64,000 bases of DNA from Brachycybe producta. Taxonomy: Eukaryota > Arthropoda > Diplopoda > Playtdesmida > Andrognathidae. Made by a program: the position numbers and the translations under genes. The DNA is taken from the NCBI GenBank assembly GCA_036925085.1, contig JAUPFP010000008.1, positions 4,613,277-4,677,276 on the forward strand. The letters run 5' to 3'. The notes below the pieces were generated by a model. It was given only the letters and a program-made list of their open reading frames with translations. It had not been told where the DNA came from and made no database searches. Below, one piece after another: positions 6,478-53,900 of this stretch (positions are counted from its first letter, which is position 1; every line of letters starts with the position of its first letter).

Positions 6478-7401
6478 GACTCGACATTGGGTGCTTATTG
6501 TGACGATGGCTACATAACTCATGCATGATTTCAAGTGTCGTTTTTTAAATTTCTTTCATTTTTAATACAATATACATTTTAAATAATTTTTTCTCATAAT
6601 GACGTATTTCAGTTAAAATATCACATGAAATTTTTTTTTAAATTTCATATTTTCATTTACAACTTTTGTTAAAATTCATGCAAAACTGCATAACTCTAAT
6701 TACTTAAAAAAATCAGCCATCCTGCATTTTAACTTTATGCCCTTTTGTTTTTATCACCAATTTCTTTTTTTTTTTAAATTTCATTTTGATGATTTTGTTT
6801 CAGGTCTCTGCAGCTGCTTTGAATCACTTCTGTAGATCTAATGGACACACTTCACAAAATTGCTTCCTGTAGCAAATTATAGCTGTATTCAATGGCGCTT
6901 GTAGGCATAGGCACGGTATAGTTTCTGTGCTATACCGGAGGATTGTTTGATAGGGGAGGTGGCGAGTGTGCAAAAGCTATATCTGAAAATGATTACATTG
7001 GGTAGAAAATAGCCTGAAATGAATACACTCAGGCTTGATCAGCCAGCCATTCATAGGCGTTATGTTATGTCCAGACCAATTATCAATTTTCTCTTTCTCA
7101 GTTATCTAGTGTGAAAATATACTGAAACACATGCAGAATTTTTAAAAATCTTTTCCTTATAAATTTCGACGAGGGAAGCAAGCCATAAAAACTGACAGCA
7201 TTTCTTAATGTTTTCCTCCCCATCCTCCTCTTGTAATAATAATAAGAATTTAATTTGGAACCAAAGTGGTAACTGATCTTTGTATAACAATTAAACCCCG
7301 TCAGTTTTACTAAAGAGCATGACATGCTACTGAATAGTGAGAATATGTAAACAGAGGAAGTTAAAGTCCACCGCAATCTAAACTGGACAGTGGGGGCGAC
7401 T

Positions 7402-7627
7402 GAATAAGCGCCAAATTGAACAAACGCCAAACTGAATAAGCGCCAAATTGAACAAACGCCAAACTGAATAACCGCCAAATTTTTGGCTTTTATTCAGTTT
7501 GGCGTTTCTTCCATTTGGCGCTTATTCAGTTTGGCGTTTGTTCCATTTGGCGCTTATTCAGTTTGGCGTTTGTTCCATTTGGCGTTTATTCAGTTTGGCG
7601 TTTGTTCAATTTGGCGCTTGATCAGCG
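7402..7627. repeat. Inverted tandem array of an 18-bp unit
   Basis: The left half repeats units such as GCGCCAAATTGAACAAAC and GCCAAACTGAATAA; from about 7485 the same units continue in reverse complement (TTTGGCGCTTATTCAG, TTTGGCGTTTGTTC) about eight times. The whole can fold into a hairpin of over 200 bases. Open frames across it on both strands come from the repeat and are not genes. Confidence 0.9.
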
Positions 7628-27121: not shown

Positions 27122-30194
<3,073 letters not shown>

Positions 30195-32286: not shown

Positions 32287-33383
32287 AAACATAATATAGT
32301 CAATTACAAACTAAAGGTTATTTTTATGTTGATAATCTTTAAAAAATAAAAACTTTGTATTGCGTTTTGTCAGTTTTGAAAATTCGCTTTTCTTGTCAAG
32401 TTGAATGAAAAAGCCAATAATGAATGCGGTCATTTCCAAAAGGCCATAAAGAGGTTCGTTTTTGAAGATTAAACAAGCCTCGTTGCTTATTCATTTACTA
32501 TTTTGCTTTTTTAAGCTTTCAGTTTTCTAAAACTAACCAAAATAGTCTTAGTCTTTTAGAACCTAAAAACGATGCCTTAATAACGAAAGGTATACTGGCC
32601 GGGTCTCATAACAATTAGTTATCACCAGTTGCGGTGTTGAACCAAATTTACAAAGCTGATGCAGCTGAGTAATTAACAATTCTAGCATCACTGCCACGAT
32701 TTGGATGAAAATAAAGATAGACCATTACCTACCATTTCTAGCAGAAATATTTGGAAATAAAAAGACAGTGAACAAGTTTTAGAATATTGTCAATATGTTT
32801 TGAAGTACAGTCATAATTTAATACAAACGAAAAGGGATAAAAGTATTGTAAATTTATGATATGAAAATGTTAGCGTGTTTAAGAATAAAAAACTTCCATT
32901 TGTAGATGGAAAAACACACTCGTAATTTGGGGGACAAAAACTGATTAAACTACTAATTTGTGGTTTGTTTTCGATTAATGCATTACACACAGCATATTAT
33001 TATTATTTTTATTACAGAAAATAATTACTCTTGTGTGCTTTAGAAGGGTAAGTTTATTGATTAGAACATTTTAGACAAGAAAATTTCCACATTACATATA
33101 ACAGTATACATAATAAGCACTCTTACATATTGTACACTACAATTTGTGCATTGTTTTCTTTGCTCAGTTAATTCTATTTGGAAGCGTTATATGTGGTGCT
33201 TAAACTGATTAATCTTGTTTTCTGTGCTAATCGTTTATTCCATTACTTTTTGATGTTAATGTTTTAATTTTTAACAATGAAGGAATATTTTGTTGCTTTT
33301 TTGTTATTTTTATTTTCAAGTTCTGCATTTATTTAACTTTTGGCATCTTTAGCAACTTTGAAAATTGACCATCTCTTTCGAAA

Positions 33384-34960
33384 ATGTTTCAACCAGATGA
33401 TGAAGCGAATAACTTCCAAGTTGATTTCAATGAAATACTGAAACCAATGTTAACATTTATGAAGTGGTATGGATTGTGGTTTATTCCTGACGATGTTTTG
33501 CAAAAGAAAGTATTTGGATTCAACATTTGGAAGTTGAATTCAATTCTGTTTATCTTTCTTAATTTTTTAACATTCTTTATGTACGGTGGAATTACTGTTG
33601 TCTATGGCCCTACTGTTGACTTTGTCACCTGGGCTATGGCTTGTTTCGTCTGTATTCTTCTCTTTCACAATACTTACACCAGTTGCATCTTTCATTCACA
33701 TTTATCCAAGGGGAGATTTTTGTCTTTCTTCAGACAGTTTCACAAGTTGGTCGAAGGTGAAATGGAAAGAAAACGCTTCAATGTGTTTGTCACCAAGATA
33801 ACTATGAGGGTTTTTCTTATTACCGTTGTAATGAGTATAGTAAACATTTTGGGTAATTAGTTTTCTCCTCATCCCCACCGAACACTCATAGATAGTAACA
33901 AAGAATGTTTCGTTTCATTTTTATTTTAGCATGGATTGCTTTAATGTACGGTAACTTTTACTTGGGCTTGGAAACTAATTTCACTCCGTTGTCGATGGTG
34001 CGACATTTTACGACACCTTGGGTCGAAATAGTTTTCTTTTACGGAACTTACGCAGTTATCGTCGTGGTTCCACATCTTTGTATCTATCACGGATTCTTTG
34101 TACTGAATTGCATGATTTTGAGGTACAGCATTGAACGATTCAATGTATTTTTAGAAGAGAACATCAATTCGACGGATAGCGACAACAATGAGTCCCTGTA
34201 CGAAGAAAGAATCGAATATTTCAGACGCAGAAATCACTTTTTCATTCAGATGGTCAATCTGTTTGACGAATTGTACCAATGGATAACTTTTGAGTACATT
34301 ATTTTGTGTGTTGGGACATCTTGTTTAGCATCTTACTTTATGGTTTTCTTCTGTTCAAATCTTCTGAGTAAATCAATACAAATTATGTGGACCATGAATT
34401 GTTTTGCATCGGCAGCGATTGTTGCATCGGGATCTGTAATTGTGCACGGTGCAGTATGTCACCAGCGATTTCTAATATTTTCTAGGGGCTTACAAAAGCC
34501 TAATTTTAATGCCTTGCATTTTGTTCTTATTCTTAAGTCACGTCGAAGTCTGAAATTTTTACACTCCGCACATTTACGAAGTCGTACTGCTAAACCTTTT
34601 CTTCATGTAAAGTATCGAACTAATTAATCGAATGACAACGATAATGTTTTCAATTTTATTCTCATTTCATATAGTTGTTGTGTTACGCACAACGTATTGC
34701 TGGATCTGAAGTAGGAATAACTGCACTCGGTTTCCTCACCATTACGAAGGAATTTGTCTTAAATGTAAGCTGTTTATTGTTGTCTTTTAAGCTGTGAAAT
34801 TGAGGTCATTTGAAATACTTTTTTCTTATTTTTTCAGTACATTGCTGCATTTTTCAGTTATTTTTTCTTACTGATGCAATTTAGCCCACCAAGAGATTTC
34901 TGCGTTTCTAACTTACATAATACTACAGCTAACACAACATTTGCAGCAAACATTCATTAA
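33384..34960 (+). CDS. Gustatory-receptor-family seven-transmembrane protein
   Basis: Four exons, all GT-AG: 33384-33852, 33930-34606, 34675-34764, 34838-34960; 452 aa. The insect-type chemoreceptor superfamily has an inverted 7TM topology (cytoplasmic N-terminus) and forms ligand-gated cation channels. Seen: MFQPDDE start with acidic N-tail, LKPMLTFMKWYGLWF, then hydrophobic spans at about residues 50-70, 77-97, 137-165, 190-217, 290-310, 325-345 and the last TM. The C-terminal signature is GITALGFLTITKEFVLN, then YIAAFFSYFFLLMQFS, matching TYhhhhhQF with Ser for Thr (SYFFLLMQF). Short introns near the 3' end follow the usual phase-0 pattern of the family. Ligand unknown. Single gene here, no tandem paralogue. 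Confidence 0.85.
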
Positions 34961-39180: not shown

Positions 39181-39624
39181 AAGAAGTTGACATTTACCTC
39201 TAGCAGTAAAAAAAAAATACGTGAAACCACCGCTCGTACGTAAATTAACTAATTAAAATTGACATTTTTCTTAACCATTAGTCAACATGAAGTAATTATA
39301 AAAATTATCAGCCATTTTAACCAAATATATTGCTATACTTTTTCTTTAAAATACTAAAATAATAAAAAATTCAACATAAAGCAATGACAAATTTAGGATC
39401 CAATGGACTGAAAATGGCGTCTATATGTAATGTGATACATCTGTGACCAATCGGCGTTCACAGTAGGATTTCCGTTTGAATTTTCAGTGTTGCCAGCTTA
39501 TAAATAATATTACTGTACCAAGCCACAGAATAAAGGGAACTACGAAGCCCCGTAAAGGACATACACAATATTAAATAAAGTTAAAAAAAAAGATATGGCA
39601 CCACTTATGGCGTCAAAAAAAGAT

Positions 39625-39938
39625 ACGGCCGCACTTACGGCCGCACTTACGGCCGCACTTACGGCCGCACTTACGGCCGCACTTACGGCCGCACTTACGG
39701 CCGCACTTACGGCCGCACTTACGGCCGCACTTACGGCCGCACTTACGGCCGCACTTACGGCCGCACTTACGGCCGCACTTACGGCCGCACTTACGGCCGC
39801 ACTTACGGCCGCACTTACGGCCGCACTTACGGCCGCACTTACGGCCGCACTTACGGCCGCACTTACGGCCGCACTTACGGCCGCACTTACGGCCGCACTT
39901 ACGGCCGCACTTACGGCCGCACTTAAGGCCGCACTTAA
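39625..39938. repeat. 12-bp tandem array (about 26 copies)
   Basis: Unit ACGGCCGCACTT repeated almost without change; the last two units have AAGG for ACGG. It is GC-rich in an AT-rich setting. Both strands are free of stops because the unit is a multiple of three, so the long open frames here are not genes. Confidence 0.97.
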
Positions 39939-40360
39939 GGAAAAAGTTGTCAACAAAAATGTAAGTTTGTGATTTCTCACACTAGATGGTGTATAAGGTG
40001 ATAAACATTGGCTATTTGACTAAATTGACTACTGTGTCACAGTATTTGTGACAGGCTTTGGATTCAGCACAAAAACTTCGTGTGCCAATTAGAAATTGCA
40101 GTCCTTCATAAACAGGGGTTTTTGTGCTGAACCCAACCGCCTGTGTGTTTATGTGCACACAATATATTTACAAATGAACACACACAAATGACAGATGATA
40201 TATTGAAAGAGATAGCAAACGATATTTTCCCCATATTTTTATGAGCATATTTGGTAAAAAAAAACAAGACATACATCAGTATCATTGAAAACATATTTCA
40301 TAATTGATTATCAAACGAACTCTAGACAAAATGCATTCGTAAGCTCCATCTTTTTTCTTA

Positions 40361-40409
40361 AGTGCGGCCGTAAGTGCGGCCGTAAGTGCGGCCGTAAGTG
40401 CGGCCGTAT
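40361..40409. repeat. Inverted short array of the same 12-bp unit (4 copies)
   Basis: AAGTGCGGCCGT repeated four times, the reverse complement of the array at 39625, in the right arm of the element. Confidence 0.95.
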
Positions 40410-40555
40410 CTTTTTTTGGCGCCATAAGTGGTGCCTTAACTGTGGCCATATCTTTTTTTTGTTTAACTTTATTTAATTTTGTGCATGTCCTTTACAGGGC
40501 TTCGTAGGGAACTTCTTCTCAAGTTCTCCTTATTCTGAATTTCTGTCACATTCTG

Positions 40556-41861: not shown

Positions 41862-44800
41862 ATGTCAACAGAAAAATTGAGTGGGGCTGCTTGGAAGACA
41901 GCCGAAGTGGAAATTCTCGGTCCTTTTCTTACGACTCCATCTGGAAATCAGTTTGTCATTTGTGCTACAGACAAACACACGAATTGGATTGAAGCTGAGT
42001 CGATGGGCGACAACGTTAATGCGAAAAACATTGCTCGTTTTCTTCTGCAAAACATTTCGAGGTTCGAATGCCCTCCAGTAGAATGTTCAGAACGAAATTA
42101 AATGTTGACTCGCAACTTGATTTTTGTATTTTACAGATTAGGTCTTTGTAAATATCGTTTTATCAATATTTTGCCACAATCGATTGAAAACATAGTACAA
42201 GAGATTAAGGTATTGGGTAAAGGATTTGTTGAAGACGAAAATTTATGGGAGAAACTGTTGGAATCGAATTCGTCCAATGACAAAGAACTGTCTGAAGATC
42301 GTCCTGCGTTTCATTTGAGACGAAAGATCTTAGGCGTTGGTTCGAGCGATTGGGACGATAATCTGAATGGGATTCTTTTTGAAATGAGAACGGTTTGTGC
42401 TCCAAAATCCGTTGGTGAAACTCCGTTCCAATTGATGTATGGCCGCTCACATCGTTACGGTTCAGTTCACGTTAACGGACACGACAGTTGTTCAGAAGTT
42501 AAGAAACAGAAAAGAAAAAGTGGACGTCCAAGAAAGATCAATTTGGATGAAGTCAGTTTTTAATTGTTCGTATGATTGATACGATGGTTTTTACTAAACT
42601 ACAATTTCATGTTTAAAATGTGAAAGGTTGTTTTTGAAGAAGATCGAACCAGAGTTGCTGACAGAAAAGTCGTTCATAGCAGATTGTCGCCTCGAACGAC
42701 GAATGCATCCAGCAGACAACCATATGGATTGAGAAAACATCTGAGATCGGCAGCCAAATCAAGTGTGTTTTTTGATTGTTTTGTATTTCATGTGATGTTT
42801 CTCAGTACCTGGCACGATAAGGCTAAGCCTTCCCCCCAAACAGAAATAAACGTGCCACTGAACACTTAACGGTTAGTTTTTTGCTTTTTAAAGGTGTTGT
42901 AAGTCGAATGTTGACTAAATCTCGATTGACACGTTCTAGTCTCAAGGATGAAAACGATTCTAGATCATCACCAGGTTGGTGATTGAATTCACTTTTCGAT
43001 TATAGGATCCGTGCATGAAAATATATAGATCATGATAGCGAAGTAACATTTAACATCTGTTTCATTTATACAGAAAAAGTAAAGTATGAAAGTAAAATTA
43101 CTACTCATGTCTCTTCTCTGAAGAAAGTGAAAAAGACGACAAAAACTTTACCAGAAGAGATATCTACGGTCGAGACGGAGGCAATCATGGAACTCGATGC
43201 AAACGATATCGTAAGTGATGACAGTGATCCGTCGTTGGACGAAAATACAACCTTGAACGATCCTTCGTACAAAGAGGATGATGGAGTTAAAGACGAACTC
43301 AGTTGTTGTAAAGTGAATGATAGAAAAAAGACGAGCAAAAAGGCTGTTGTGAGGTTCCCGAGGGCTAAGAAGGTGAAGGTCCAAAGGAATGTTAAGTTGG
43401 ACCAGTTGAGCGAAGAACAACTTATAGAGATTCAAGGGTTCGAACCAACGGTCTGTCATTTGTGTCCTGAGCGAAAAGCGAGTTTTATTTCAGAGAATAT
43501 ACGGGACGTTCACATGATGTTTCATAAAGAAGGTGTTGATTGGTGGTTCTTTTAATTAATTCATTCGTTTACAAGGTTATATTTTTTTTCTCAAGGTAGC
43601 GATAAATTGCATTGTCCACATTGTAATTTGGAAGAAATGCTGTGGAGTGAAATGCAGATGCATTTGGTGTCTCATTGCGAAGTTCCGATTGCTCTAACAC
43701 TTCCGATCGAATGCTTCACGTACGATGCGAATCGAATTTGACATATTTGCGGTCGTTTTTTTTTTTTCATATTGTGTGACTAATTTCAAATTTTTTATAG
43801 TTGTCGAGGTTGTTCTAAGGTGTTGGGAAGTATTGATGCCGTTGAGAAACATTTGCAGGTCTTCCATCGAAATCGTCCTGTCAGTGTTTGCAACGTTTGT
43901 GGGAAATTATTTAGAAATCATCGACGCTTTGTTGCTCATATCGGTGTCCATTCGGGAATGGAACACACGTTAGTTTCTTTACTGTTATTACGCTGGCTAA
44001 GTTAAAAGTCGGTAGTGAATTTCTTCTTAGGTGCATTAGAATTGTGTTTGCAAATTTAATCACGAGACAGTACGATTTTTTGCATCAACATTGAATGATT
44101 CTTTAAATTCCACAGGTGTAATAATTGTACGTTTCGTGCGAGGTCATTCTGTACTCTTGCAGAACATCAGATCATACACCAGGTATAATTTTATTTAAAA
44201 AAAGTCATGTTTAATTTTATTGTCTTTTAACAAGTTAGTTTTTTTAAACTTATCATTTGAGGGGGCCGGAGTCACTTGTCCTATTTGCAATAGATTGTTT
44301 CCGACTGACTTTCACGTGAAGGACCATCAAAAGAATCACAAAAAGAAAGACAAGGTTAACATTTGCGAATTCTGTGGTAAACAGTTTTATGGAATCGGTG
44401 CCTTAAGGCATCACATACGATATATTCACGGTGACACGGAGCAATTCACTTGTAAACTATGTGATTATATTGGAAAAACGAAAAGTAACTTACAGGTACA
44501 GCTTTTTTTCTCGCCGCCTTTCTTCTTAAGAGCGTTCACAGATGAGAGACTTCTAGTGGTCTAGATGGACTGCAAAACGTGGTCGGGGTGTGGCAGAAAC
44601 CGACCACTGCCAGTTGTTGGCAAGTGGTTCTAGCGTAGTTGAATGAACTGCAAAAAGGAGTCGTTTAGAATCGGCTTGAGTGTTCGATTTCAGCCAAACG
44701 GCGACCGATTTTTGCAGTCCACCTCGACTATTAAAGTCGCTGACGTGTAACTGCTCCTAAAAGTTCAACAACTTATGAAAAGTGGATTTTTTTTTCTTGT

Positions 44801-46111
44801 TTCTCTTTTAAAAAAAAGGGCCACACAAAACGTGTTCATGCAAAACCGTTTAAGTGTCTGAAATGCGACTACGCTTCCTTGTCAGAATCGACACTTCAGA
44901 AACACGTGGACATGTTTCATAACCAAGAGGGTCGGAATCATCCATGTGCACTTTGCCCTTACAGAGGACGGGATTCAAAGACGTTAGCCGAACACTTTCG
45001 AATCCGTCACAAACCGACGGACGGCTTCACTTGTCCTACGTGCAGTGTAGCATTCAAAACGAGGACGCTACTTCGAGATCACATGCCGATGCACACAGGA
45101 GCCAGAGCTTTCTCCTGCAATCTCTGCGATTATACGTGATTACGCCATTTTTTTAAAATATAATTTTACATAATTGCAGCTCTTCTTTGAAATAATTTTT
45201 GAAAGAAGTTCAAAATTTATTTGAAATTTCAAATTGAGCAACACTTAAGAGTAACTGGGTAACTGAATCACTTATTAGTATTTCATGTTGTTATTTTTCA
45301 ATATAAACTTTTTATAGACCAGGGCTGGTTTGAGAGATTTTTCATGTGTAGATGATATGGAATTTTGCCGCCCCTGAAAACAAGAAATCTAACTAAACTC
45401 TAAGCAGCACAAGACTGTGTAAAGGCGCATTTACTAGCGAGATGAAGATGAATTTCTTGTATTGAATTTCTTTTTTTTTTTAGAAAATAAATATTTTCTG
45501 CCCTAGAAAATGCCGCCCTTAACCGCCTACGTCGCCTACACCTAGAATCGGCCCTGTCGATTTTTTAAAATCGAAAAAAATTGAAAAAACTAAAAAAAAA
45601 AAATCGATTTTTATAGATATATCTATATCATATCTATGTGAATTGAGGTTTACAAATATTTTATTGTTTTAGAGCCAAATATCGTCCAACAATGTTTCGT
45701 CACGTGAAGAATAAACATCCTGGTCATACATTGTCAAGCGCCTCTTGCGTTTCTGGACGTGAAAGTGTTACCAGAACGATCGCGAACCGAACTAATCGTA
45801 AATCTAAGGGTACGATGACAAATAAGCTGCCAAGTGAACCCATGGTTGTGGTCGAATCGGAATTTCCGTTCCAAGAATGTGTCGATCGCACGACAGAAGA
45901 AGTGGAAGAGGAGAATCGTGACGCGATCAACAGCATCTCCGATCATAACATGGTTGCAATCATGGATTCGAATCTATTGGCCGAAATGGCAGCTTCGGGA
46001 CACGTGTGTATTCAGTACATTGATAACGTAGTTGAATCGGTAGGTTCGATGGAGACTGTGGACGATACGAAAGACAAATATCACGCGGAACTCACATTTT
46101 CTTGTCTATAG
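41862..46111 (+). CDS. Decayed Ty3/Gypsy-type integrase fused to AT-hook and twelve C2H2 zinc fingers
   Basis: Eleven exons, all GT-AG: 41862-42061, 42137-42551, 42627-42762, 42894-42974, 43074-43532, 43596-43719, 43801-43968, 44116-44182, 44262-44495, 44819-45135, 45673-46111; 879 aa. Residues 1-165 look like a retroelement integrase: LGPFLTTPSGNQFVICATD, KHTNWIEAESM and GETPFQLMYGR are typical of Ty3/Gypsy integrase cores. The expected DLxGP aspartate is Glu, the SDxG segment is spliced out or lost and no PQxxGxxE glutamate is visible, so it is catalytically dead. An AT-hook (KSGRPRKINLDE) follows near residue 200, then a Lys-rich acidic linker and twelve C2H2 fingers between about residues 415 and 760, most spaced as Zn-finger tandem units; two are split by introns. 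Likely a nuclear DNA-binding protein. Start ATG follows an in-frame stop and an acceptor at 41852. Confidence 0.85.
44527..44762. repeat. Repeat family D, copy 3, in intron 9 of the zinc-finger gene
   Basis: AAGAGCGTTCACAGATGAGA at the left and GCTGACGTGTAACTGCTCCT at the right are imperfect inverted ends, with TAGTGGTCTAGATGG and CACTATTAAAGTC-type inner arms. It sits within a GT-AG intron without disturbing the reading frame. Confidence 0.65.
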
Positions 46112-50900: not shown

Positions 50901-53900
50901 TTTTTTATATTTTCTTTTTCTTCAGGGAAAATGCTGTAAACCATTGTGTAAAGTGCCAAGAGATCTAACTGCATCGGAACTTACGTTCTACAAGCAGTTT
51001 CTAACTGAATTTGATGTGGGTATTCGTTTTCAAAGCGAATCTCTTGATCCTGTTTCAAATGCTTTGTCTTTGGATTCGGAACGTCAAAGTGTGATGGACG
51101 TTGAAACTCCAGCAGTTCGAACTAACAAAGTTAGCAAAGTTTCCAATGATGATTTGCAAAGTATTCTGTCTTGTATCGGTCTTTTCAAGAGTGATTCTAG
51201 TGGTAGTGGTAGTGGTGGTGGTGTTGATATTGGAGACCAGAGTACAAGTGGATTTAGTGATGTCACGATGCAAGAATGTGGTAGTTCAGTTCGAAATTGT
51301 TGTTCTCAACATGAAGGCGGCGTGTGTCACACTTGCAAGACGTTCAGAAACTCTCGTCTTCTAGACGATATAAAGGAGTCGATGAAAGACAGAAAGCAAG
51401 TTGATCAATTTATTCAGTCGTTTGACTTTGCAAAGAATTACGAAGACAATTCTCAGTATACTAAAAATACCGTGCCATTTGTTAAATTGGCCTATCCCGA
51501 AATGAATTCCGATCGTTTCGTTCGCTACCAAGAACCACTTTACAGTAGAGACAATCCAGTGTGCAGGTAGTGAATAGTTTGACCATAAGATTTTTCTTGA
51601 CTTGGTTTCATGGAATATTTTGTTTTGTTTTTTTGAGAACAAAGATATTAGAAAGCCTCGATCGATTGTTTGAGAAGGAGCAAATTGAACAAAAAGTTGT
51701 CTATGATTATGATGCCATGATCGTAGCTCAAGGTCCAAAGAAAGATAGCTTCGAAAAATTGACAAACAACGATCCATCTCGGCTTGGAAAAGTAGATGGA
51801 CCGGAGGGTTGCTTGGAGTTTGAGTCCAGATTTGAATGTGGCAATTTACGAAAGGCGACTATGGTTATTACAATGATTTAATTATGAGGCTATTTTATTT
51901 TTTCTGATCATGTGCAATTTTTTTGTATTTTGTACTTGAACTTTTAAAAAAGTCGCTATGACTGGACCAGTCACATTGGAGTGATTATACATACTTGTGC
52001 AGTGTATTAATTACACTTTGCGGCACCCATGCAAACTTTTGAATCGCTGTATAAAGGCAAACATTTTTATGAGACAAAAACGAGGTTATATTTAAATTGA
52101 CGAGTGCCCCGTTATCCGAGGATTATATTGAACATATAATTAACGTAAATCTAAATGGGTAATTGACAGTATAGTGACGTACTTGAAATTGAAAATGAAA
52201 ACCTTAAACCTAAACACCATAAAAACTGCATGTGATCGAAAAAAATAATGTAGTTGTTTTTTTAAAAACAAAGAATCTGTTTCGCTTAATCGTAAAAGAT
52301 AGGAGCGCACGCTTACGAACTCATCTTAAATCCCGATGTGAACAGTGATCATCATTATCAGTGGTTCTATTTCGAAGTGAGCAACATGGAAGCAGGAATA
52401 CCATATTTGTTCTATATTGTTAACTGTGAAAAAGGAACGTCACAGTTCAGTTATGGTATATAGAATCAAATATAATTATTATAAATATCTTAATCGACAC
52501 TTGAATTTATTTTACTTTCCAAATTTAGGAATGAAACCGTTGTTATATTCTGTGAAAGAAGCTGTTATGGGTCGTCCCGGTTGGACACGATGCGGCACAG
52601 ATATTTGTTACTATCGCAATCATTACAGTTGTCTTCCTGGTTCAAAGGGTAGATCTTACTTCACTGCTCATTTTACCGTCGTCTTTCAACATTCGTATGA
52701 TGTTTGCTACTTTGCGTATCATTATCCATATTCTTACACTTTGCTGAAGGTTATTTGAACATAATTTCTTGGGAGTTCTTTGTTTTAAGTTTATTATTTT
52801 GATTTATTTTCAGAATCATATGCAATTGTGGGATAGCTGTCACAACCGAAAGAATGTCTACTATTGTCGGCAAGTTTTGTGCCACACTCTGAGCCAGAAC
52901 GATGTTCCCATTTTGACGATAACATCTGCGAATCCTTGCGATGTGGCCAAGAGATCGATCGTGTTCTTATCTGCTAGAGTACATCCGGGTGAAACAAACT
53001 CTAGTTGGGTTATGAAAGGTACGGCTAAGTGGCAGTTGAATATGAGCCGTTTGTGGGTAGAATATTAATTATAAATGTGATTTTATCTCTTGTAAGGAAC
53101 TATCGACTTCTTGTTAAGCGACAAGCCGTCGGCCGAGACGCTACGAGAGACTACGATATTCAAAATCATTCCCATGTTGAATCCAGATGGAGTAATCAAT
53201 GGATGGTACAGAAATTCGTACTTTTATATATATATTTTTTTCATGTAAGCAACGTTATTATTTTTAATAGCCATCGTTGTTCACTGAGCGCCGAAGATCT
53301 GAATCGTTGTTGGTTGGATCCGTCACCAAGCGTACAACCGACAGTTTATCACACAAAGACACTTCTTGTAGCTTTAAAACAATTGGGAAAACTACCATTT
53401 GTATTTTGCGACTATCATGGTCATTCTCGCCGTAAGAATGTGTTCCTTTTCGGTTGTGATGGTCAATATAGTTGGTCTTTAAGTGACAGGCAGAGAAGCG
53501 ATGTTCATATTGAGGTATATCAGAAGATTATTTTTGGGCAAGAATGGGACAATGATGATCTTTATTATATATAAAAATTAAGAAATGACATAAGTGTTTT
53601 AAAAATTAAAATATTTAATAATTTTAAATTTTAAACTTTTAGTTTAAAAATATTTAGGCCTTGTAAGAAAAGAAACTATCGTTAATGCTGTCCACACATT
53701 AGCAAGAAAGCAAGAGTACAGAAGTAAATAAGAAATATACAACCTACATACGTCATAATATTTTCTTTTCATTCAAGGCTTATAATAAAAAAAAATCGTA
53801 TAAATGCCAAATTACCCCAATTAATTATTCAAATTAAATTTAGTAATTGTATCGAAATCTTTGGCAATTGAAATTGATTGTCAGCCATTTATGAACTTTA

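Follow-up and report, generated by a model that had tools for sequence, protein, structure and literature searches.

A Degenerate Integrase Core, an AT-Hook, and C2H2 Zinc Fingers Joined in an Old Gene Family of Brachycybe producta

Results

A Single Old Gene With an Integrase-Derived N-Terminus

A single old gene, and not a retroelement lying beside a gene, occupies positions 41862 to 46111 on the forward strand of a 64,000-nucleotide stretch of Brachycybe producta DNA (hereafter the window; assembly GCA_036925085.1, contig JAUPFP010000008.1, positions 4,613,277 to 4,677,276). From its N-terminus, the predicted protein comprises a degenerate integrase core, an AT-hook, an acidic linker, and 12 C2H2 zinc fingers. 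We conclude that the locus is one gene because a paralogue elsewhere in the genome repeats this order of parts, shares introns with it (one of them inside the core), and has diverged to the point that fourfold degenerate sites are saturated; the gene and its paralogue constitute a real, old gene family. The protein is probably a host transcription or chromatin regulator that arose from an old fusion, in which the catalytically dead core would mediate self-association or partner binding.

When spliced as listed below, the gene has 10 GT-AG introns of 63–537 nt with the reading frame kept across all junctions, and its coding sequence of 2,640 nt, including the stop codon, encodes 879 amino acids with no internal stops. 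The names b1–b3 and a1 for elements of the core follow those of human immunodeficiency virus (HIV) integrase.

41862..46111, + strand: whole coding region, 11 exons, 879 amino acids; 6 of 10 intron positions common to the paralogue
41862-42061, 42137-42551, 42627-42762, 42894-42974, 43074-43532, 43596-43719, + strand: exons 1–6
43801-43968, 44116-44182, 44262-44495, 44819-45135, 45673-46111, + strand: exons 7–11
41886..42458, + strand: degenerate integrase core, residues ~9–174, interrupted by intron 1 (42062-42136, phase 2), an intron also in the paralogue
41862..42061, + strand: exon 1, core elements b1–b3 and a1 (W11, VEILGPF, TPSGN, TD..T.WIEA), with E17 in place of the first catalytic Asp
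42137..42551, + strand: exon 2, eroded catalytic section, the block WD..L..ILF.MRT...ETPFQLMYGR, and the AT-hook
42510..42536, + strand: AT-hook core KRKSGRPRK, residues 192–200, as read from the sequence
43074..43532, + strand: exon 5, linker with basic and acidic stretches (residues ~278–400) and the first, atypical finger
43454..45718, + strand: array of 12 C2H2 fingers, residues 405–749, exons 5–11
45719..46111, + strand: C-terminal tail, with a short motif in common with the paralogue (MDSNLLAEMAASG / LDASLLAQAAAGG)

Twelve fingers were found with a loose pattern and 11 with a stricter one, the first finger (residues 405–428) being the loose one on account of its long Cys-His spacing, and Pfam is clear on the tandem array. 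Taking the AT-hook motif to be a GRP core with basic flanks, both KRKSGRPRK in the window gene and KRLRGRPRK in the paralogue qualify on reading the sequence. An initial annotation, made from the window's sequence, had called one gene with agreeing exon phases, an AT-hook, and twelve C2H2 fingers, and each of these calls stands.

Relation of the Core to Mobile-Element Integrases

Searched against the genome of the window's own species (295 Mb in 442 contigs), residues 1–205 gave 12 matches at E ≤ 0.001: two to the gene itself, one to a locus on contig C32, and nine to integrases of mobile elements. These nine fall within residues 9–176 at genome-wide E-values of 2.3e-5 to 9.5e-4, the top one being a broken copy; three of them (L013, L017, and L020) lie in loci that Pfam confirms as integrases, and the other six were assigned by likeness. 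Against a profile built from seven integrases of the genome, the window protein scored 52.4 bits and the paralogue 49.2 bits, whereas the highest score among 2,000 shuffles was 7.6 bits; hhalign, comparing the alignment of the two genes with that of the elements, gave 99.3% through 146 columns. The HMMER profile matches are confined to two blocks, residues 10–66 (32.7 bits) and residues 131–174 (16.9 bits), the second of which is the retained WD..L..ILF.MRT...ETPFQLMYGR block of exon 2, and tblastn alignments of the core to several elements span ~160 residues. The profile took 7 of 17 element loci (L002, L004, L007, L013, L016, L017, and L020; the others were near copies or broken), of which L013, L016, L017, and L020 were first recovered by searching with the window core; this makes the test mildly circular in a way that shuffling leaves untouched. 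By tblastn, profile, and hhalign alike, homology to integrase cores extends over the domain.

Neither copy retains the D, D, E set of an active DDE integrase: the first position is Glu in both (E17, within VEI, in the window gene), and neither has kept the second Asp or the Glu. The eroded catalytic section in exon 2 carries an insertion (C...FIN) that is common to the two copies. Both the integrase-derived N-terminus and the loss of its catalytic acids had been proposed in the initial annotation, and both are borne out. A search of plus-strand frames with an H2C2 pattern produced one hit, judged spurious by eye, in the 8 kb preceding the window gene and none in the 5 kb preceding the paralogue, a search that an intron-split domain would escape; comparison of the frames upstream of the two genes gave short, weak matches only (best E 0.004, 12 aa).

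The Pfam and PDB searches weigh against the integrase reading. The Pfam rve model (PF00665) reached 12.5 bits on the window core, below its cut-off of 32.6 (E 0.18), and gave no match to the paralogue core, and phmmer of the window core against the PDB gave no match. The structural check suggested in the initial annotation yielded an unusable model: AlphaFold prediction of 41862-42551, with intron 1 kept and its stop read as Gln, had a predicted local distance difference test score (pLDDT) of 30.1 and a predicted template modeling score (pTM) of 0.21.

A Paralogue With the Same Arrangement

The paralogue lies at 283–292 kb of contig C32 (loci L021 and L022, 278–298 kb) and was put together by hand as 12 exons encoding 1,077 residues, with an alternative acceptor for exon 8 that reads equally well. 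It has, in order, a core, a GRPRK hook, a YGLR motif, an acidic linker, and 14 canonical fingers, and its C-terminal motif resembles that of the window gene. Six of the 10 window introns recur in it at the identical residue and phase (four in the finger region and one each in the core and the linker), a number reached by none of 20,000 random placements; the remaining four are unshared in the window-paralogue alignment.

Between the two cores, 53 of 157 aligned codons encode the same amino acid (34%), and fourfold sites agree at 5 of 24 (21%) vs. 28% expected by composition. In the fingers, 156 of 346 amino acids are identical, with agreement at 16 of 41 fourfold sites (39%) vs. 29% expected by composition. 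Synonymous divergence (dS) between the copies is saturated and not computable. The comparison indicates that selection maintains the protein sequence of both copies, a judgment made from two copies of one genome that cannot show within-species selection, which counts against the argument. From the shared introns, the order of parts, and the saturated fourfold sites, we conclude that this is one gene, that the fusion predates the duplication, and that both copies are constrained. The old domestication called in the initial annotation is thereby upheld.

At the DNA-contact positions, the five fingers at residues 614–749 keep 2–4 of 4 residues between copies and the preceding six strict fingers keep 0–2. 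A reciprocal search of the genome with the paralogue core gave seven matches: itself (two), the window gene (two, at E 1.3e-4 and 2.5e-4), a Ginger1-type element and a fragment on contig C17 (two), and a Gypsy-type element (one); no third family member was among these seven. A search with the final six fingers gave identity above 41% over a stretch longer than 69 residues at the window and C32 loci only, other C2H2 genes being lower or equal. Loci L033–L036 were considered as integrase-free sister C2H2 loci and rejected, as they show 21–43% identity in the fingers only and no sign of orthology. Searching the PDB with the fingers (phmmer) matched 94 distinct chains; among the 60 matches listed, all are finger proteins with CTCF first, a top match that we do not take as orthology of the array.

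The first fingers of the paralogue look tandemly duplicated (L021:8471-9901 and L022:1-728), and one of its introns is filled by a attgaataatttttaaaaaa-type repeat. Elsewhere in the genome, long C2H2 frames are dense at C33:1.888-2.112 Mb and C68:96-128 kb, the C33 cluster accounting for ~70 of the 133 finger-search matches.

Source of the Core

The genome is rich in integrase elements (best 150 of 1,752 candidates scored). Two element loci are of Ty3/Gypsy type by their Pfam domains, L038 with gag, reverse transcriptase, RNase H, and integrase, and L040 with reverse transcriptase, RNase H, and integrase. In locus L039, Pfam identifies H2C2 and rve domains, and a GPY/F-like stretch and an Ulp1-like protease end were recognized by eye; beside these domains no reverse transcriptase frame was seen, except for a non-LTR (long terminal repeat) endonuclease frame. 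This arrangement, together with the inspection by eye, fits a Ginger1-type element, and the layout matches the available part of the description of Ginger1 transposons (PMC2836005). The protease end has sub-threshold Pfam matches only, the nearest in kind being YopJ-type (E 0.058), and nothing relevant in the PDB; L039 lacks long terminal repeats, and as terminal inverted repeats only one 26-nt pair (81%) came up, which is unconvincing. The L039 core is uninterrupted by introns. Among the best 150 of 1,933 candidates, the Ginger1-type copies that stand out are L039, the only full one, and the broken-up C17 fragment. The L039 element, which has a Tyr at the first catalytic Asp position (L039:5136-7006), may itself be a relic or be turning into a host gene.

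A dUTPase frame (L039:736-1867; Pfam 6.1e-12) lies 3–4 kb upstream of this integrase element and adjoins a frame with the motif YTDTDS that is DNA-polymerase-B-like by eye and has no Pfam match. Polinton-type or viral remains near L039 are possible.

In a tree built from the two genes and the cores of 14 elements (fragment L061 left out), the window gene and its paralogue join with an ultrafast bootstrap (UFBoot) of 100, and the pair is placed beside L020/L039 with a UFBoot of 88, which is not significant. A single capture preceding the duplication is supported by this analysis, because a tree that puts the paralogue alone with L020 and the window gene elsewhere is rejected (approximately unbiased [AU] test, p 0.001). 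A Ginger1-type element, rather than Ty3/Gypsy, may have supplied the core, as the best tree suggests and as does the nearest outside match of the paralogue core, which is L039 (43% over 53 aa, 49% over 43 aa). Derivation from a Ty3/Gypsy integrase with later gain of the intron has, in our estimation, somewhat less than an even chance. In its first half, the window core has its nearest matches in L016/L013 (Gypsy-type) and L056, with the Ginger1-type element behind them, and five other placements of the pair pass the AU test (p 0.246, 0.064, 0.153, 0.076, and 0.127), of which, however, two are excluded by the Kishino–Hasegawa (KH) and expected likelihood weight (ELW) tests. Thus, where the initial annotation named Ty3/Gypsy, the relation to integrases holds and the Gypsy source does not follow, although the AU test does not reject such a placement.

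The core intron predates the window-paralogue duplication. Ginger1 elements can have introns of their own, according to the available parts of PMC2836005 and PMC12863088, and if Ginger1 was the source, the intron may have been inherited rather than gained. Of the earlier claim that introns were gained within the integrase part, one intron inside the core is confirmed, and gain after capture is unproven because a Ginger1 source is possible and Ginger1 genes can have introns.

Discussion

Proposed Function and Its Alternatives

In the history we propose, a mobile-element integrase-like core, of Ginger1 or Ty3/Gypsy type, would have become the N-terminus of a C2H2 protein whose gene was then duplicated. 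The C2H2 array would read DNA in the major groove and so provide sequence-specific binding, the AT-hook would hold the protein on the minor groove of AT-rich DNA, and the dead core would act as a module for self-association or partner binding, holding molecules or partners together. Both copies retain two parts of the core, the first strands together with helix a1 and the WD..L..LF..RT region, on either side of an eroded catalytic section, and we take these retained segments to be those in the HIV integrase core dimer. Because the fold prediction reached a pLDDT of only 30, a retained dimer surface is an argument from sequence. The two copies likely recognize a shared core DNA site with diverged flanks, since fingers 614–749 keep their contact residues better than the six before them. 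As to the direction of regulation, we lean toward repression or architecture.

A different role, that of an element-silencing factor, would have the core still binding element ends or the integration machinery, with fingers and core targeting the parent element family. Descent from a mobile-element protein, the abundance of integrase elements in the genome, and the divergence of finger contact residues between the copies are in line with this role; against them stand the eroded catalytic section, the lack of an N-terminal H2C2 zinc domain in the upstream frames searched, and the reduction of the Ginger1 type to one copy and one broken-up fragment among the best-scoring candidates, and we consider this role unlikely. 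It is very improbable that an integrase relic and a neighboring zinc-finger gene have been joined on paper only. The first paralogue exon found has no start codon, leaving 5′ ends uncertain, whereas a single 704-nt paralogue exon runs uninterrupted from the core via the AT-hook into the linker, the linker intron (residue 251 in the window gene, 288 in the paralogue) is shared exactly, and order and strand have been preserved since an old duplication. The Pfam and PDB negatives would suit an integrase likeness due to convergence or common to RNase-H folds in general, an explanation that retains hardly any probability given two blocks in the right order, the margin of the profile score over the shuffles, the hhalign result, and tblastn alignments along most of the domain in several elements. 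A recent, decaying insertion of a retroelement fragment into a zinc-finger gene, to which the degenerate core and lost catalytic acids might point, is already contradicted by the presence of the same core, core intron, and whole order in the paralogue, by the saturated fourfold sites, and by spliced frames without internal stops in both copies, and it merits virtually no credence.

Comparison With Known Integrase-Derived Genes

For an old integrase–zinc-finger fusion acting as a regulator, the nearest known design is ZBTB11, in which, as in the window gene, an integrase-derived N-terminus precedes a C-terminal finger array; statements here on published genes refer to the available parts of the papers cited. 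ZBTB11 is a vertebrate transcriptional repressor with an integrase HHCC domain, a BTB domain, and 12 predicted fingers (PMC5384227; PMC12062965), and 808 of 828 BTB/integrase-zinc fusions of this kind occur in chordates (PMC12062965). Whereas ZBTB11 has HHCC and BTB, the window family keeps the RNase-H-like core and has an AT-hook, and a Pfam scan of the window protein and of three parts of the paralogue (part of the linker being outside the scan) gave no BTB match up to E 1; the pattern search of upstream frames likewise gave no convincing HHCC domain. ZBTB11 constructs without the N-terminus rescued a zebrafish mutant and HHCC point mutants did not (PMC5384227); an N-terminus of integrase origin may thus be dispensable, which speaks against the importance we ascribe to the core. 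Both proteins end in about twelve fingers. Descent of the arthropod family and ZBTB11 from one very old integrase-C2H2 fusion, with the core kept and HHCC lost in the arthropod line and HHCC kept and BTB replacing the core in the vertebrate one, is an ancestry that we hold to be a long shot.

We found no description of the order core, AT-hook, C2H2 array in open-licence literature. The unfamiliarity of the architecture, remarked on in the initial annotation, thus applies to the exact order, while an integrase N-terminus before a C2H2 array is known from ZBTB11. Ten million proteins were screened in PMC12062965, the supplement of which may list such a core-hook-finger fusion.

Closest in host group is Imagin, a malacostracan, Ginger1-derived gene in an MMUT intron, with an H2C2 domain, a YPYY motif, and a protein that is mainly cytosolic in oocytes (PMC12863088). 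Imagin and the window family are alike in being arthropod and multi-exon, in the lost catalytic acids of the core, in purifying selection, and in a possible Ginger1 origin; Imagin differs by its H2C2 domain and YPYY motif, and no C2H2 array is named for it in the available part of the source (PMC12863088). The vertebrate GIN1 and GIN2 are likewise domesticated, integrase-like genes with introns, from Ginger1/GIN transposons, but they keep HHCC, and the available parts of the sources mention neither a C2H2 array nor an AT-hook for them (PMC3424704; PMC2836005). Mammalian GIN1 retains residues required for activity (PMC3424704). Some CENPB and HTH-Psq factors, across animals, likewise carry rve signatures (PMC10027918).

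KRABINER, SETMAR, and CSB-PGBD3 resemble the window gene in that a mobile-element protein was captured beside a host regulatory part (PMC12062965). In KRABINER-type fusions the element part tends to give DNA binding, whereas in the window gene the host fingers would do so and the element part would probably be a scaffold. The mammalian gene KRBA2 has a partner domain that we take to be KRAB. KRBA2, SCAND3, and NYNRIN of mammals share with the window gene their status as integrase-derived host genes with introns, and SCAND3 and NYNRIN are described as fusions (PMC3257199; PMC12863088); the partner domains of these two are SCAN and NYN, and a C2H2 array is described for none of the three in the parts available.

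The integrase captures named in these papers, as far as their available parts go, are mostly vertebrate, and the window family adds an invertebrate example, represented by two copies of ancient separation within a single genome. If the core still dimerizes, it would offer zinc-finger proteins a ready-made oligomerization module, and the fusion raises the testable question of how a host benefits from a dead integrase core. The family would be of greater interest if it had orthologues across arthropods or if kinship with ZBTB11 were true.

Other Features of the Window and Genome

Upstream of the fusion gene, a 12-bp unit, TACGGCCGCACT, is repeated 26 times at positions 39624-39937 of the window, and 0.4 kb past this array its complement occurs four times with a 42-bp repeat (40359-40459). 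Arrays of 16/32-bp units stand back to back in opposite orientation at 7399-7619. Exons of GOLPH3 (GPP34), a conserved host neighbor, are found at 29414-30194. Seven-helix-like frames at 33369-34627 are gustatory-receptor-like by eye and have no Pfam family at a useful E-value, and a frame at 53029-53574 resembles a cytosolic carboxypeptidase exon by eye, the raw frame having no Pfam match.

The telomere repeat TTAGG gave 7,679 overlapping exact 30-mer matches in the genome (499 + 7,180), and the same search found none for TTAGGG or TTAGGC. The nematode spliced leader SL1 sequence is absent from the genome within one mismatch. On the mitochondrial contig C442, COX1, presumably arthropod by its appearance, is open under four of the five genetic codes tried (4, 5, 9, and 13) and has stops only with code 2. 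An arthropod genome, rather than a nematode one, is indicated by the telomere repeat and the appearance of COX1; the mitochondrial code would not by itself point to an arthropod. Gene order on this contig (L044 and L045, genes named by eye) is rearranged, with nad4 and nad5 on the cox1 strand, nad1 on the opposite strand, and no tRNA-Leu between cox1 and cox2. Nuclear cox1 copies lie at C1:12697416-12698753 (nearly full length, with one TAA) and C17:3.33-4.03 Mb.

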